From the NCBI GenBank assembly GCA_019310385.1, contig JAFDEK010000015.1, forward strand, positions 1 through 51,069: a stretch of DNA of 51,069 nt, read 5' to 3'. The stretch is from Deltaproteobacteria bacterium. GTDB lineage: Bacteria > Myxococcota_A > UBA9160 > UBA4427. Shown here in pieces: positions 43,917-51,069 of the stretch (its first letter is position 1; every line of letters starts with the position of its first letter). The position numbers and the translations under genes are program-made. Below the pieces are notes generated by a model, which saw only the letters and a list, made by a program, of their open reading frames with translations, made no database searches and was not told the DNA's origin.

Positions 43917-44936
43917 TTAGCAGATGCGGGGAAGGTTGGCGCCGGAGAGGAGGTCGACGGGGCGTTCGCCGCCGATCTGGGTGTGGATGACGACGGGAGC
44001 GCCGGCGGTCATGGGCGCCTCGACGCGGCCGATGGGGGCGGCGCCCTGGCCGAGGGGGTGGGCACACAGGACATCGAGGGCGCGCTCGGCGTCGCGCTCG
44101 ACGACGAAGGCGAGGAGGCGCCCCTCGCTGGCGAGGTGGAGCGGGTCGAGGCCGAGGAGCTCACAGGTGGCGCGCACCTCGGAGCGGATTGGCAGGTTGG
44201 CCTCGTCGAGGACGATGCGCGCGCCGGCGTGCTCGGCGACCTCGTGGCAGATGGTGCCCACGCCGCCCCGGGTGGGGTCGTGCATGGTGTGCACCTCGGC
44301 GCCGCTCTCGAGCAATGCTTCGACCAGGGAGGCGAGTGAGGCGCAGTCCGATCGCAGACCTGCGCCTTCGAGGCCATGTCGACAGGCCATCACCGTGGCG
44401 CCGTGATCACCGAGGGGGCCGCTGCTGAGGATGACGTCGCCCGGCGTCACTCGGTGGTCGCCGAGGTCGCGCCCCGGCGGCGACACGCCCAGCCCCGTGG
44501 TGACGGCATACACGCGATCTCCCTTGCCCTTGGGCACCACCTTGGTGTCGCCGGCCACGATCTGCACTCCCGCCTCTTCGGCGGCCCGCGCGGCGCTCCG
44601 GGTGATGGTCGCCAGCAGCTCCTCGTCGCAGCCCTCCTCGAGGATCAGTGCCCAGGTGAGCCACAGCGGACGCGCGCCCGCGACGGCGAGGTCGTTCACG
44701 GTTCCGTAGACCGAGAGACAGCCGAGGTCGCCGCCCGGAAAGACCGGCGGGTCCACCACGAAGCCGTCGGTGGTGAGGGCGGGCCGGCCCCCGGGCAGCT
44801 CCGGGAGCAGCGCCGCATCGCTGAGGGGCGAGAGAGCCGGGTTCTTGAATGCGGGCAGGAAGAGACCGCGCACGAGCTCCTGGGTAAGGCGGCCGCCGGA
44901 GCCGTGGCCGAGCAGGATCTTGTCGAATCGCTTCAC
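43917..44936 (-). CDS. hypE: hydrogenase maturation protein HypE
   Basis: 339 residues from GTG 44936, overlapping the hypD stop as GTGA. PurM/SelD-like ATPase fold: ILLGHGSGGRLTQELV, VVAGDTKVVPKGKGD and DPTRGGVGTICHEVAEHAG. The C-terminus ends PRIC, with Cys339 being the residue that HypF carbamoylates and HypE dehydrates to thiocyanate, the source of the CN ligands of the NiFe active site. The complete tail shows it is functional HypE rather than SelD. It is the last gene of the hyp cluster. Confidence 0.97.
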   Translation of the reverse strand: MKRFDKILLGHGSGGRLTQELVRGLFLPAFKNPALSPLSDAALLPELPGGRPALTTDGFVVDPPVFPGGDLGCLSVYGTVNDLAVAGARPLWLTWALILEEGCDEELLATITRSAARAAEEAGVQIVAGDTKVVPKGKGDRVYAVTTGLGVSPPGRDLGDHRVTPGDVILSSGPLGDHGATVMACRHGLEGAGLRSDCASLASLVEALLESGAEVHTMHDPTRGGVGTICHEVAEHAGARIVLDEANLPIRSEVRATCELLGLDPLHLASEGRLLAFVVERDAERALDVLCAHPLGQGAAPIGRVEAPMTAGAPVVIHTQIGGERPVDLLSGANLPRIC

Positions 44937-46132
44937 CTTTGTGTGCCCGTCCTGGCGCCCATCCCCCGATCCATCCCTTCGCTCATTCCTTCGCCCCTCC
45001 CTCCGCCCAAGGCGAAGCGCTCGTGGCGATACCAGGCTGCGCAGGTCCCCTCGCTGGAGACCATGCAGGCGCCGATGGGGTTCTCGGGCACGCAGGCCTT
45101 TTCGAAGAGGGGGCATTCGGGAGGCTCGATGGTGCCCTTGAGCACCTCGCCGCAGCGGCAGCCGCCCGGCTCCCGAGACTGGATCACCTCCACCGGGATG
45201 CGCCAGGCATCGCGTCGTGCGTACTGCGGGCGCAGGGCGAGGCCGGAGGCGGGGATCTCGCCCAGTCCGCGCCAGCGCGTGTCAGCCGGCTCGAAGTAGC
45301 GCGCCATGAGCTCCTGGGCGGACTTGTTCCCCTCCGGTGTCACCACCCGGCTGTAGAGGTTCGCGATGCGCGGCCGGCCGGCCGCGAGCTGCTCCACCAG
45401 CTCGCACACCCCCGCCAGGATGTCCACGGGCGCAAAGCCCGCGATGGCGGCGGGGACCGCGTAGTCCTCGGCGAGGAATCGATAGAAATCGGATCCCAGG
45501 ATTACCGAGACGTGGCCCGGGAGAAGAAAGGCGTCGACCTCCACCTCGCCGTCCTCGAGCAGGGCGCGCAGGGGCGGCTCGATGAGCTTGGCGCCAGTCA
45601 GGATCAGGAAGTTCGCGATGCCCTCGCGCTCGGCCTCGTCGAGTGCCGCGGTAAAGGTGGGCACGGTTGTCTCGAAGCCGACGCCCAGGAAGACGACCTG
45701 CTTTTCGGGGTTCTCCCGCGCCACGGTCAGGGCCTCTCGCGGCGAGTACATGGGGCGGATGTCGCAGCCCTCCGCCCGCTCCCGTTCGAGGCTGCTCTGG
45801 GTTGCGGGCACCCGCAGCAGATCGCCGAAGGTGCACACGATGACGTCGGGCCGACGCGCCAGGGCGATGGCCCGGTCGAGGTAGTCGACGGGCGTCACGC
45901 AGACGGGGCAGCCCGGACCGGAAATGAGCTTCACCTTCTCCGGCAGCAGCCGCCGCAGGCCGGCTTCGGAGATGGCGTGGGTGTGGGTGCCGCACACCTC
46001 CATGATGGTGATCCGGCGCGTGAGTTCCCGTGCGCGCTCTGCCAGGTGGCGCGTCAGGGCTCGCACCCGCTCCGGATCGCGGTAGGCGTCGTTGTTCATC
46101 ATTCGAAAGTTCATCATTCGAAAGTCCATCAT
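44933..46132 (-). CDS. hypD: hydrogenase maturation protein HypD
   Basis: 399 residues from ATG 46132 (overlapping the hypC stop as ATGA). HypD carries the [4Fe-4S] cluster and, with HypC, assembles Fe(CN)2CO. Diagnostic motifs: IMEVCGTHTHAI, ISGPGCPVCVTP, FLGVGFETTVPT, PGHVSVILGSDFY and C-terminal GGCRCGEVLKG with CPLFEKACVPENPIGACMVSSEGTCAAWY. The first 12 residues (MMDFRMMNFRMM) come from a three-copy 15-bp repeat, so translation could begin at any of several Met codons; the conserved protein begins near NNDAYRDPERV. A low-complexity tail (MSEGMDRGMGARTG) is dispensable-looking. Confidence 0.96.
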   Translation of the reverse strand: MMDFRMMNFRMMNNDAYRDPERVRALTRHLAERARELTRRITIMEVCGTHTHAISEAGLRRLLPEKVKLISGPGCPVCVTPVDYLDRAIALARRPDVIVCTFGDLLRVPATQSSLERERAEGCDIRPMYSPREALTVARENPEKQVVFLGVGFETTVPTFTAALDEAEREGIANFLILTGAKLIEPPLRALLEDGEVEVDAFLLPGHVSVILGSDFYRFLAEDYAVPAAIAGFAPVDILAGVCELVEQLAAGRPRIANLYSRVVTPEGNKSAQELMARYFEPADTRWRGLGEIPASGLALRPQYARRDAWRIPVEVIQSREPGGCRCGEVLKGTIEPPECPLFEKACVPENPIGACMVSSEGTCAAWYRHERFALGGGRGEGMSEGMDRGMGARTGTQR

Positions 46133-46138
46133 TCGAAG
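46094..46138 (+). repeat. three 15-bp tandem repeats across the hypC-hypD junction
   Basis: The unit GTTCATCATTCGAAA (minus strand: TTTCGAATGATGAAC) occurs at 46094-46108 and 46109-46123, and a 2-base variant at 46124-46138. The outermost copy contains the hypC stop and the hypD ATG. Because the unit is 15 bp, each copy keeps hypD in frame and supplies two more ATGs. Confidence 0.92.
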
Positions 46139-46404
46139 GCTCCCGGTCCGAGGGCGCCCTGCCGCTCGAGGCCCCCTTCCTCGAAGACCTCTCTGCCCAG
46201 GGCCTCCTCGATCAGGGCCAGGGTGCGCAGGGCCTCCTCCTCGTCGATCTCGCTGATCGCGTAGCCCGCGTGGACGAGCACGAAGTCACCCTGGCGCGCG
46301 TCGGGGCAGAGCATCATGGAGATCTGCCGGCGCACGCCTCCCACCTCCGCGGTGCCGTCGAACTCTCGGCGCTCCACTACGCGCATGGGAATCGCGAGAC
46401 ACAT
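46129..46404 (-). CDS. hypC: hydrogenase maturation chaperone HypC
   Basis: 91 residues if it starts at ATG 46404, the second of two adjacent ATGs. The second is preferred because the mature protein needs an N-terminal Met-Cys (MCLAIPMRVVE), whose cysteine binds Fe(CN)2CO, and because the GGAGGT ribosome site is then 5 bases away. Central segment GDFVLVHAGYAISEIDEEEA is typical. It shares bases with the hypF stop (TGATG) and with the hypD start. Confidence 0.95.
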   Translation of the reverse strand: MCLAIPMRVVERREFDGTAEVGGVRRQISMMLCPDARQGDFVLVHAGYAISEIDEEEALRTLALIEEALGREVFEEGGLERQGALGPGAFE

Positions 46405-48788
46405 CATTCACCTCCAATCCATGCGGGCAGCATACCCCGCGTCAGGCTGGCGCTCGCGACCAGGCACTGTCCATAGGAAAGGGCTCCGTCGCCCGCAGGC
46501 AGCGCGCTCGGGAGCAGCACTTCGAAGCCGAGAGCTTCGAGCTCCGTGCGCAGCCCCTCTCGCAGCAGGCGGTTCACCAGGCAGCCACCTCCCACGGCGA
46601 GGGTGCGCACGCCCGCAGGCAGCACCGCGGCGCTGAGCTGCGCCGCCAGGGCGCAGAAGCTGGCGTGAAAGCCCGCGGCCACGCGTGCCGGCTCCTCGCC
46701 CTCGCTCCGGCGCCGGCACGCCGCGGCCAGGAGCTGCGCGGTGGGAAGCTCGCGCTCGCCCTCGGCGAGCTCGACTTCGCTCCAAGCTGAGACCCTCCCG
46801 CCGGCTCGGCTGGCCAGGGACTCGAGGCGCGCCGCGCACTCGCCCTCCCAGTGATTCCGGGGCCCCGCGCCGAGCAGGGCCCCGGCGGCTTCGAAGACGC
46901 GGCCGGCACCCGTGGCCCGCGGCCAGTCGCCGCTGTCCGCCAGCGCGCAGACCGAATCGAAGACGGAGCGCTCCACTCCCGTGGCCGCCGCCAGCTCGGG
47001 AAGCAGCTCGTCGTGTCCGCTCGCGCGCAGCGCCGCAGCGGCGACCCGCCACGGCTCGCGCACGGCGCGCTCACCGCCCACCAGCGCAAGGGGAGTTGTG
47101 TGAGCGAGACGCTGCCAGCGCAGGTCACCCTCGAGCAGCAGCCACTCGCCGCCCCACGCCGTACCATCCGGCCCCCAGCCCGTGCCGTCGAGGATCAGCG
47201 CCGCGCAGCACTCTCCATCCGCGGGAAAGCGACCGTGCTCTCCGAGTACCGCCGCCGCATGGGCGAGGTGGTGCTGCACGCGCAGTAGCCGCCCGCCGCG
47301 TGCCTCGGCGAGACGCTCTCCGAGCCAGCTGCTGGCATAGTCGGGATGCAGGTCGACGGCGATCACGCCGGCCTCGACCTCGAGGAATTCCTCGAGGCCC
47401 GACGCGACCTCTTCGAGGAAGGCCCGGGCGGGTGCGGTGTCCAGGTCTCCCACGTGCTGGGAGAGGAAGGCTTCGCTTCCGACGGCGAGGCAGGCCGTGG
47501 TCTGCAGGTGTCCGCCGAGGGCGAGGACGGGCTCGGGGGTGGGCAGGGGAAGCTGAACGGGTTCGGGAACGAAGCCCCGGGATCGGCGGACGAGAAGCGC
47601 GCCTTTCGGGGTGCTGCGAAGCACCGAGTCGTCCACCCGCCGCACGACCTCCCGGTCGTGGAGCAGGAGGCTCTGCGCGAAGCCCGCGAGCTCCCTCGAG
47701 GCCTCGTCGTTGCAGCGTGCGATGGGCTCGTCCCAGGCGTTGCCCGAGGTCATGACCAGAGCCGCGAAGGGCGCGCCGCGAAAGAGCTCGACGTGAAGGG
47801 GCGTCGTCGGGAGCATCACGCCCACGTCGTCGATCCCCGGCGCCACTTCGTCGCAGAGGAGCTCACACTCTCTTCGCGGCGCCAGGAGTATGGGGGCGCG
47901 GGCCGACGCCAGCAGGGCGCAGTCCTCGTTGCTGAGCCGGGCCATCTGTCGCGCGCTGGCGAGGTCCGGAGCCATGACGGCGAAGGGCTTGGTGGGTCGT
48001 CGCTTCGCGGCGCGCAGGCGTACCAACGCCGACGCTCGGTCGGCGCGGCACGCGAGCTGAAAGCCCCCCAGGCCCTTCACCGCGACGGTCTCCCCCCGCG
48101 CCAGAGCCTCGCGCGCCGCGTCCAGAGCCGCCTCCCCCGTCGCCTCTACGCCGCCGCCCGGGGCCGAGAGCCAGAGCCGCGGCCCGCACGCGGGACAGCA
48201 GGTCGCTTCGGCGTGGAAGCGGCGGTTCTCCGGGGCGCCGTACTCCTTCTCGCAGGTCGGGCACAGGGGGAAGCGCGCCATGGAGGTGCGTTCGCGATCG
48301 TAGGGCAGGCCGAGACTCAGGGAGAAGCGCGGTCCGCAATTGGTGCAGGTCGTGAAGGCGTAGCGATGGCGGCGATCGTCGGGATCCTCCATCTCGGCCC
48401 TGCAGTCCGCACACAGAGATGCGTCGGGTGGGATACGGGCGCCGTGTCGCGCGCCGAGGATGGAGGTCTCGACGCGAAACCCGCTTTCCCCGCGAAGCGG
48501 CTGCTCGCGCAGCGCGAGGCCGTCGAGCTGCGCAAGGGGCGGCAGGGAGTCGCGCAGCCGGGCGACGAAGAGGTCGACGGCCGCGGGCGGGCCCTCGACC
48601 TCGATGGTGGCGCCTTCCGCGTCGTTGCGCACGGCGCCCGCGAGGCCGAGGCTCTGGGCGAGCCGGAAGACAGCCGGCCGGAAGCCGACGCCTTGCACGG
48701 CGCCGCGGCAGCGCAGCTGCCGCCTTATCAGGGCGCCGGCGCCACGGCGGCCTTTGCGGCCGATCGGGTCCGCAGCAGTCTGCACCAT
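46404..48788 (-). CDS. hypF: carbamoyltransferase HypF
   Basis: 794 residues from ATG 48788, overlapping hypB by 61 bases; a CTG at about 48731 just after the overlap is an alternative. Domains in order: acylphosphatase (RCRGAVQGVGFRPAVFRLA), two zinc fingers (CADC/CTNC, CPTC/CPAC), YrdC-like carbamoyl-AMP domain (about 210-395, AVKGLGGFQLACRADRASAL, KRRPTKPFAVM) and Kae1-like domain (about 420-790, VQHHLAHAAAVLGEHG with metal His pair). It makes carbamoyl adenylate from carbamoyl phosphate and transfers the carbamoyl group to HypE. Confidence 0.95.
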   Translation of the reverse strand: MVQTAADPIGRKGRRGAGALIRRQLRCRGAVQGVGFRPAVFRLAQSLGLAGAVRNDAEGATIEVEGPPAAVDLFVARLRDSLPPLAQLDGLALREQPLRGESGFRVETSILGARHGARIPPDASLCADCRAEMEDPDDRRHRYAFTTCTNCGPRFSLSLGLPYDRERTSMARFPLCPTCEKEYGAPENRRFHAEATCCPACGPRLWLSAPGGGVEATGEAALDAAREALARGETVAVKGLGGFQLACRADRASALVRLRAAKRRPTKPFAVMAPDLASARQMARLSNEDCALLASARAPILLAPRRECELLCDEVAPGIDDVGVMLPTTPLHVELFRGAPFAALVMTSGNAWDEPIARCNDEASRELAGFAQSLLLHDREVVRRVDDSVLRSTPKGALLVRRSRGFVPEPVQLPLPTPEPVLALGGHLQTTACLAVGSEAFLSQHVGDLDTAPARAFLEEVASGLEEFLEVEAGVIAVDLHPDYASSWLGERLAEARGGRLLRVQHHLAHAAAVLGEHGRFPADGECCAALILDGTGWGPDGTAWGGEWLLLEGDLRWQRLAHTTPLALVGGERAVREPWRVAAAALRASGHDELLPELAAATGVERSVFDSVCALADSGDWPRATGAGRVFEAAGALLGAGPRNHWEGECAARLESLASRAGGRVSAWSEVELAEGERELPTAQLLAAACRRRSEGEEPARVAAGFHASFCALAAQLSAAVLPAGVRTLAVGGGCLVNRLLREGLRTELEALGFEVLLPSALPAGDGALSYGQCLVASASLTRGMLPAWIGGE

Positions 48789-49402
48789 GCATCGATTCCC
48801 TTCCCGGCTCGGGTCGAGATCTCGAGGATCTCGGCGTCCGGGTTGAGCGAGCGAATCTGCTCGCGTGCCACCGCGATATCGAAGTCGACGTGGGGCAGCA
48901 GGTCGATCTTCGTGATGAGGCTGACGTCGGCGCGGGCGAAGATCGCGGGGTACTTGAAGGGCTTGTCGTGGCCCTCGGCCACCGAGAGCAGAGCCACCTT
49001 GACGTCGTCGCCCAGCGCGTAGGAGGCGGGGCAGACCAGGTTTCCGACGTTCTCGATGAAGAGCAGATCCAGCTCGCCGAAGCCGGCCGTCTCCAGGCCT
49101 TCGCGCACCAGGCGCGCGTCCAGGTGACAGGCTCCCCCTGTTACGATCTGATGGGCGGGCAGGCCAGCGTTGCGGAGCCGCTGCGCGTCGAGCTCCGTCG
49201 CGATGTCGCCCACTACGCAGCCCACGCGGACCGAGTCCGCCAGCTGCAGTGCCGTGGCTTCGAGGAGCGAGGTCTTCCCCGAGCCCGGTGAAGAGACGAG
49301 GTCCACGACGAAGGTTCCCGTCGCGGCGAACTTCTCGTTCAACATGGCGGCTTCGGCGTCGTTGGCGGCCAGGATCTTCTTGCGGAACTCGACCCGATTC
49401 AT
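48728..49402 (-). CDS. hypB: hydrogenase nickel-insertion GTPase HypB
   Basis: 224 residues from ATG 49402, overlapping the hypA stop as ATGA. G-domain: P-loop VSSPGSGKTSLLEAT, VVGDIATELDAQRL, metal-site region GGACHLDA, IENVGNLVCPA, and TKIDLLPH. The His-rich and CxxCGC N-terminal nickel-storage sequences of some HypB are absent, leaving only the GTPase nickel site. It delivers nickel with HypA to the hydrogenase large subunit. Confidence 0.97.
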   Translation of the reverse strand: MNRVEFRKKILAANDAEAAMLNEKFAATGTFVVDLVSSPGSGKTSLLEATALQLADSVRVGCVVGDIATELDAQRLRNAGLPAHQIVTGGACHLDARLVREGLETAGFGELDLLFIENVGNLVCPASYALGDDVKVALLSVAEGHDKPFKYPAIFARADVSLITKIDLLPHVDFDIAVAREQIRSLNPDAEILEISTRAGKGIDAWCRLLRTRSAAKAAVAPAP

Positions 49403-49773
49403 GCATCTGCCTCCGCGCACTCCGCTTGCGCCTCGAAGGCGAAGGAGAGGATGTCGAGGTCGTGGCCGCCGTCCAGCTGAAGAGGGCTCTCGCAGTCCGG
49501 ACACAGGCGCAGCCAGGAGCCCGGCTGCCGTTCGACCACGTCGCCGCAGCTGGGGCAGCACTGCCGCGCGGGATGCCACTCGATATCGAGCCGTGCCCCC
49601 GCGTCGGGGCCGTCGGCGGTCACCGCCTCCCAGGCGAAGGCGAGCAGCTCGGGCTCGACGGCCGCAAGCTCGCCCACCGCCACCCGCACCTCGTCGAGGC
49701 GCCCTCCGCCTCGCGCCTGCAGCTCGCTGCAGCAGACCCGGTAGAGCTCCGTTGCGACGCTCAGCTCGTGAAT
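49399..49773 (-). CDS. hypA: hydrogenase nickel chaperone HypA, initiated at AUU
   Basis: 124 residues if translation begins at ATT 49773. That gives Met-His-Glu-Leu-Ser-Val-Ala-Thr-Glu-Leu-Tyr, the invariant HypA opening in which His2 binds nickel, and a normal length. AGGAGG sits 6 bases before the ATT. In this frame a TGA lies 13 codons upstream, with no ATG, GTG or TTG between it and ATT; the first conventional start, GTG 49689, would remove the nickel site. The zinc site is CCPSC...CPDC. It overlaps the protease gene by 13 bases. Conventional calling would annotate a truncated 96-residue protein. Confidence 0.9.
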   Translation of the reverse strand: MHELSVATELYRVCCSELQARGGGRLDEVRVAVGELAAVEPELLAFAWEAVTADGPDAGARLDIEWHPARQCCPSCGDVVERQPGSWLRLCPDCESPLQLDGGHDLDILSFAFEAQAECAEADA

Positions 49774-50285
49774 GGCTCGCCTCCTCGTCTTGCGCGGCCC
49801 GCTTGCGCGTCATCGAGAAGCTCGTCGAGGAGCTTGCCCGCGGATTCGAGTGCCCCGGGGAGGGCCTGCTCGACGAGTCCCGAAAGGCCCACGCCCGTCT
49901 CCAGCACCGCCGGCACGACGCCCACCACCGCGGCGCTCGCGGGCAGCTCGCCCAGGAGCTGGGCCGCCGCCAGCAGTCCGCTCGCGTTGGCGCCGTGGGC
50001 GCCGAAGCCCTGGGGGCTCAGGTGGGCAAGGGGGTCGCGTAGCACCTCGACGCTGCCTGGTGCGGCGCCCGTCGAGACCGCGTCGAGGATCAGCACGGCG
50101 CGGCGGCCACCAAGGAAGCCGAGCAGCGCCACGCCCTGGGTGCCGCCGTCGACGAACTCCACGCGCTCGTCATGGCCCCGCTCTGCGCGCAGTGCCTGCA
50201 GCAGCTCGAGCCCGACGCCGTCGTCCCGCAGCAGAAGATTCCCCAGGCCGAGCACCAGAACCCCTGCGGGCTCGTCAATCGTCAT
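49761..50285 (-). CDS. [NiFe] hydrogenase maturation protease (HyaD/HupD family)
   Basis: 174 residues. N-terminal GLGNLLLRDDGVGLELLQALR is the family signature, with the metal-binding Glu/Asp near the front; FVDGGTQGVALL and the Asp in LILDAVSTG carry the second ligand, and HGANASGLLAAAQLL the third region. It removes the C-terminal peptide from the hydrogenase large subunit after nickel insertion. It overlaps cytochrome b upstream by 11 bases and hypA downstream by 13 bases. Confidence 0.92.
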   Translation of the reverse strand: MTIDEPAGVLVLGLGNLLLRDDGVGLELLQALRAERGHDERVEFVDGGTQGVALLGFLGGRRAVLILDAVSTGAAPGSVEVLRDPLAHLSPQGFGAHGANASGLLAAAQLLGELPASAAVVGVVPAVLETGVGLSGLVEQALPGALESAGKLLDELLDDAQAGRARRGGEPFTS

Positions 50286-50979
50286 CGGGCTCCTCCGATA
50301 CGCGGCGGAATTTGTTGCCGTGGATCATCGATCCGATGAGGCCGTTTCGGAATTCGCGGCTGTCGAGCAGGATGATGTAGAGATGCAGGATGACGAAGAC
50401 CACGAAGCCCCATGCGGTGAGGTGATGCCACATGAGGGTCTGGAAGGGGCCGCCAAGGAGCGGGATCACCCAGCCCACCAGGCCGTCGATGAAGCCTCCC
50501 GGGTTCGACTGGGAGTAGAGTGCGAAGCCCGTGAAGATCTGCGCCGTTCCCAGTCCGATGACGAAGGTCGTGTAGGCCACGCCCGCCATGGGGTTGTGGC
50601 CCAGGTGGGGCTTGCCGGCCTCGAGACGCAGATAGAGGGAGAGCTGGTGGAGCAGGGAGCGCCACCAGGTCCTGCTCCAAATGCTTGGGAAGCCCGTGCG
50701 CGCGTAGTGGTTGCCCAGAAAGAACCAGGCGCCGCGCCAGGCGTAGTTCACCACGAAGACGAAGGCGAAGGAAAAGTGGATCTCGCGCACCCAGCCCATG
50801 AAGAACTTGTTCCAGGCCTCGCCGCTCGAACCGCTCAGGAAGAGCACCGTCACGCAGAGGCCGTTGAGCCAATGGAAGAGTCGGATGGGAAGCTGCCAGA
50901 CGTAGATTCGCTCGAAGCGCGCCGGCCCGCTGACCGGGGCCTGGATGGATTCCATCGCCGTCGTGTCGTGATGCGCCAT
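50275..50979 (-). CDS. Ni/Fe-hydrogenase b-type cytochrome subunit
   Basis: 234 residues from ATG 50979 behind AGGAG. Four membrane segments, with haem-ligand histidines in IRLFHWLNGL, VREIHFSFAF, MWHHLTAWG and VILHLYII, match HyaC/HupC cytochromes. The family anchors group 1 uptake hydrogenases at the membrane and passes electrons from H2 to quinone. The structural hydrogenase subunits should lie just beyond the window end. It is followed immediately by the maturation protease gene. Confidence 0.95.
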   Translation of the reverse strand: MAHHDTTAMESIQAPVSGPARFERIYVWQLPIRLFHWLNGLCVTVLFLSGSSGEAWNKFFMGWVREIHFSFAFVFVVNYAWRGAWFFLGNHYARTGFPSIWSRTWWRSLLHQLSLYLRLEAGKPHLGHNPMAGVAYTTFVIGLGTAQIFTGFALYSQSNPGGFIDGLVGWVIPLLGGPFQTLMWHHLTAWGFVVFVILHLYIILLDSREFRNGLIGSMIHGNKFRRVSEEPDDD

Positions 50980-50980
50980 T

Positions 50981-51067
50981 GCGAGCTCCTCCCTGCTTCC
51001 AGTCCCATCCGCGGCAGCGCCGCTCCGCGCGCTCGCGGATTACCACCTCGGCGAGCTTCCGTCCGTC
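50981..51067 (-). CDS. possible C-terminal end of hydrogenase large subunit (partial, frame uncertain)
   Basis: From the window edge, one minus frame reads DGRKLAEVVIRERAERR, which resembles the peptide after the last Cys/His motif of NiFe large subunits (typically DxxGRxLxxVxI). That frame has no stop before the cytochrome start; another frame has a TAA after a few codons. Either the subunit ends with a shift (indel) or this is coincidence. Its position just upstream of the cytochrome gene is where hyaB/hupL normally ends. Confidence 0.3.
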
Positions 51068-51069
51068 GG

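Follow-up and report, generated by a model that had tools for sequence, protein, structure and literature searches.

The hypA gene studied here raises the question of which codon starts its translation: read base by base, the first codon of the HypA frame is ATT, and the frame opens with I-H-E-L-S. The window, i.e., the whole stretch of DNA analyzed (51,069 nt), is an entire contig (C76) of a 4.93-Mb, metagenome-type draft genome in 215 contigs (88% complete, 5.2% contamination), and its composition lies near the genome's centre and is typical of that genome. AUU appears to be the best reading of the hypA start, as suggested by a gene survey, by a very strong Shine-Dalgarno (SD) sequence and by the infC starts of the lineage, which appear to be non-canonical.

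The hypA start site and its product

The minus-strand frame runs ...TGA CGC GCA AGC GGG CCG CGC AAG ACG AGG AGG CGA GCC ATT CAC GAG CTG AGC... (Table 1). The initial annotation had proposed that hypA starts at ATT with AGGAGG six nucleotides upstream, that an in-frame TGA 13 codons before ATT shuts out an upstream start, and that the stop codon of an upstream protease gene lies just inside hypA. The sequence features behind these statements hold base for base: none of the 12 codons between TGA and ATT is ATG, GTG or TTG, and the protease TGA falls within hypA. The first canonical codon 3' of ATT in this frame, GTG at 49689, is situated within the domain, and a start there would cost HypA its first 28 residues, including the nickel site. 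The conserved N-terminus cannot be obtained from any canonical start, and the SD sequence stands at an appropriate spacing from ATT.

The hypA product matches the PF01155 profile with 78.6 bits (cut-off 28.9, E = 4.5e-22). Its top NCBIfam match is TIGR00100 (positions 1-114) with 64.7 bits, which is below the equivalog cut-off of 88.1, and the product is therefore regarded as a divergent HypA. All zinc cysteines are kept in two CxxC motifs (Cys 73/76 and 91/94). The nickel-site residues His2 and Glu3 are likewise present, and Met1 would be present only if initiator tRNA reads AUU. Nickel binding by HypA requires the N-terminal amine together with His2, and the insertion of a single residue (L2*) already leaves the protein nickel-binding deficient (PMC7055735, PMC5557546). 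This requirement argues for an initiator methionine at the ATT codon.

With the 16S rRNA tail assumed to be the standard one, the computed pairing energy of the hypA SD sequence is -13.3 kcal/mol, a value that 1.9% of 987 genes reach or surpass, and this figure is conservative because the 987 gene starts were chosen by a rule favouring strong SD sequences. Compensation by a strong SD sequence has likewise been described for non-canonical starts in S. aureus (PMC13009471). The structure around the hypA start is average when compared with real genes of the genome. An 80-nt fold was less structured than its own shuffles, but in view of the average value against real genes no claim is based on structure.

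Table 1. Coordinates of hypA, its initiation signals and the neighboring genes in the window.
Feature	Position	Strand	Remarks
Ni/Fe-hydrogenase b-type cytochrome subunit	50275..50979	-	TIGR02125 above its cut-off
HyaD/HybD/HupD-type hydrogenase maturation protease	49761..50285	-	TGA 49763-49761 overlaps hypA by 13 nt
In-frame TGA	49810..49812	-	13 codons 5' of ATT; rules out a distant upstream start
Shine-Dalgarno AGGAGG	49780..49785	-	spacer to ATT of 6 nt
ATT start codon (best reading)	49771..49773	-	in alignment with the start codons of all related HypA
hypA	49399..49773	-	124 codons from ATT plus TGA stop; product I(M)HELSVATELYR...
hypB	48728..49402	-	intact; ATG overlaps hypA stop
hypF	46404..48788	-	intact
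hypC	46129..46407	-	intact
hypD	44933..46132	-	intact
hypE-holding frame	43917..45116	-	family match from ORF residue 66; true start internal

Operon and genome setting

The genes for cytochrome b, the protease, hypA, hypB, hypF, hypC, hypD and hypE form a run on one strand in which all members are identified and uninterrupted, and hypA is thereby placed in the hydrogenase maturation neighbourhood expected of HypA/HybF. As the operon is intact and the zinc cysteines and the His-Glu pair are kept, there is no sign of decay. The contig breaks off immediately 5' of the cytochrome b gene, cutting the operon and leaving the ATT codon 1.3 kb from the contig end. Neither a large nor a small hydrogenase subunit was found in the 88% complete draft genome. 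Since the contig stops where the subunit genes would be expected, their absence is ascribed to the missing part of the genome, and the structural subunits are most likely located just beyond the contig end. At its very edge (50980-51069, minus strand), the contig holds a frame reading DGRKLAEVVIRERAERR, which runs without a stop up to the cytochrome b gene and which we take to resemble the C-terminal end of the large subunit of NiFe hydrogenases; this stretch may contain a small sequence error.

A second hypA with a normal start, which the initial annotation had named as evidence against an AUU start, was not found in the draft genome at its 88% completeness. A HypF-based scan of genome contigs returned two distant loci only. 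In a search of plasmids no match was obtained at the DNA level, and the protein search yielded 27 records, all of them below 40% identity. An overlap of protease and hypA is also present in the Acaryochloris plasmid pMB02. In a first check, the protease was mostly absent upstream of hypA in relatives, and the protease-hypA order is consequently not general in the phylum.

Start codons in relatives and elsewhere in the genome

Start codons were compared among full-length HypA proteins with His-Glu at positions 2-3, a subset of the listed HypA places drawn from a sample of the phylum and from the class of G289. The 127 distinct proteins of the phylum begin with ATG (94), GTG (31), TTG (1) or ATT (1, the window's own), and ATT occurs in none of the other 126, which come from other genera. 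As the set was chosen for His-Glu, the 100% conservation of these residues is partly by construction, while the start codon was unselected. Two GCG “starts” in the tally proved to be HypF frames and were left out of the 127. The window's HypA shares about 39% identity with its nearest relative, so that the comparison documents the rarity of ATT but not its age in this lineage. With ATT found in one draft genome and in 0 of 126 others, the nearest of them at this distance, the codon has no demonstrated conservation among relatives.

Several further features of the family were observed in this comparison. GTG-started HypA proteins make up about one quarter of the full-length set of the phylum (31 of 127; for example, L064, L082, and L109). 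Short HypA-like proteins that begin with MHEA or VHEA are found in many relatives (L010-L016, L020, L023-L027); they cover profile positions 1-70 only, the zinc-finger half being unmatched. Several genomes of family f29 have HypA-like frames that lack the His-Glu pair at positions 2-3 (L115-L122, L124).

A survey of 1.54 Mb (31% of the genome) comprised 1155 predicted ORFs, 35 of which lack a canonical codon around the onset of coding. Within this group, hypA alone offers a convincing SD-led AUU, AUC or AUA codon. Five other loci with an SD-led AUH or CTG codon (L197, L156, L164, L203, and L228) were interpreted as shadow frames or internal positions from low score or frame depth alone. A first count of codon enrichment gave an excess of ATT (four seen, 1.0 expected); three of the four adjoin canonical starts, leaving hypA, and genome-wide use of AUU starts is consequently not supported.

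The only other such case in the first pass, which covered the first 0.91 Mb, was infC, which falls outside the subset of 35 ORFs because a conserved GTG codon lies within the scanned zone. The infC gene of this genome (G000:C96:2837, minus strand, locus L155) exhibits AGGAGG followed, after 8 nt, by ATA, with no canonical codon at the start, and thus apparently starts at AUA. In 30 infC genes read from relatives of the same order (L125-L154), most have ATT, ATA or ATC behind an SD sequence at the homologous place, and a few have ATG (L127, L130, and L147). As read from sequence, the pattern agrees with that of infC in other organisms. This prevalence suggests that the ribosomes of the lineage probably accept AUU, AUC, and AUA starts.

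Readings of the ATT codon and known rare starts

A genuine AUU start of hypA, on which ribosomes would be placed by the SD sequence and probably by termination of the protease, is the reading that we consider likely. The very strong SD sequence (AGGAGG, 6-nt spacer) would position ribosomes at AUU, probably with the help of ribosomes fresh from terminating on the overlapping protease gene, whose TGA lies 10 nt 3' of AUU. Initiator tRNA would then read AUU despite the third-position mismatch, and the outcome would be the fMet-His-Glu N-terminus needed for nickel binding, at reduced yield. Short distance and the presence of an SD sequence favour re-initiation after an upstream stop (PMC2268962), and IF3 discriminates against AUU starts, which reduce expression (PMC9764084, PMC9410913, PMC13009471, PMC5472188). 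Judged from such precedent, and from the 13-nt overlap of hypA with the protease gene, coupled gene pairs having a downstream start that overlaps or abuts the upstream stop, coupling of hypA translation to the protease gene, as proposed in the initial annotation, is plausible. Precedent likewise makes it plausible that hypA is limited by IF3 via its AUU codon. The best reading is a start that is real but weak and inefficient; we infer a reduced yield, and any benefit of the AUU start would be a matter of inference as well.

Alternatively, the codon might really be ATG, with the T arising from a consensus error or picked by the assembler from a minority strain. We regard this as unlikely, although the draft is fragmented and contaminated, the site is close to a contig end, ATT is one transversion away from the most frequent start, and ATT is known from this one draft genome. 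The uninterrupted neighboring genes and the typical composition of the contig give no sign of poor sequence nearby, and an unusually strong SD sequence sits exactly at the ATT codon. Moreover, single-base consensus errors are, as far as is known, rarer than real non-canonical starts. By our own reckoning, two AUU genes among some 4,300 in E. coli correspond to a base rate of roughly 5e-4, which is judged to exceed the chance of a one-base consensus error; the count of two is as cited in PMC9410913. Switches from AUG to AUU among close relatives are very rare, at one of 61,358 reconstructed AUG starts or about 1.6e-5 per start (PMC5622118), and this rarity speaks against a genuine AUU start.

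It is considerably more doubtful that a true ATG-to-ATT mutation crippled hypA, so that the protein is not made or is truncated from the internal GTG. The failure to find hydrogenase structural subunits in the draft genome and the restriction of the codon to this one member of the set would fit such a scenario. However, the whole hyp operon is intact, all invariant HypA residues are kept, the missing subunits are most probably encoded just past the contig end that cuts the operon, and a product from GTG 49689 would lack the nickel site. Very improbable, in our view, is a reading of AUU as a selected control point, by which hypA output would track the IF3 level and protease translation. Owing to the poor pairing of AUU with initiator tRNA, a fraction of HypA would in this case lack fMet and start at His2 by drop-off-reinitiation, with an altered amine ligand and different nickel binding; drop-off-reinitiation at AUU has been observed in vitro (PMC10158994). 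A start elsewhere, either at the near-cognate ACG that lies five codons upstream inside the open stretch or by frameshift from the protease frame, is barely credible, as the ACG abuts the SD sequence on its 5' side and has no SD sequence to serve it, and the resulting N-terminal extension would bury the nickel-ligating amine; none of the surveyed HypA proteins requires such an extension.

Several known rare starts can be compared with a genuine AUU start of hypA. The initial annotation had described AUU starts as known mainly for infC. The example stands, but the list needs extending, for instance by cvfC1 of S. aureus (PMC13009471) and by pcnB of E. coli (cited in PMC9764084, PMC9410913). Like hypA, the IF3 gene infC has an AUH start behind an SD sequence (AUU in E. 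coli, AUA in S. aureus). Its low initiation and discrimination by IF3 are established, whereas for hypA they would be expected by analogy; infC also feeds back on itself and its non-canonical start is widely conserved, whereas HypA has no role in translation and its ATT was seen once. The pcnB gene (Binns and Masters 2002, cited in PMC9764084 and PMC9410913) is an ordinary, non-translation gene limited by AUU, as is proposed for hypA, but is described as having a poor ribosome-binding site, in contrast to the hypA SD sequence, which is among the strongest of the genome and is accompanied by overlap with the upstream gene.

The AUU of cvfC1 and the AUA of ccpN in S. aureus resemble hypA in combining a non-canonical start outside infC with an extended SD sequence; their use has been demonstrated with ribosome profiling and reporters, and relatives share them, whereas hypA is known from its sequence alone (PMC13009471). 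The GTC start of sigR in Streptomyces sets dosage amid overlapping operon genes, an arrangement similar to that of hypA, but the codon differs and was demonstrated experimentally together with repression by IF3 (PMC5472188). In lepA, a different gene, AUU was deduced from the sequence in the same manner as here, no other codon yielding the complete conserved protein (PMC1780047), and hypA would belong with such sequence-inferred AUU starts, with better-than-usual support for where the protein begins.

What makes HypA a good test case is the chemical need for its first residue: nickel is bound by the N-terminal amine and His2, and the start codon can consequently be fixed from sequence more surely than in most genes. 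If the AUU start is real, start callers restricted to ATG, GTG and TTG would miss hypA or shorten it past the nickel site, and a metal-chaperone gene would join the short list of AUU-started genes.
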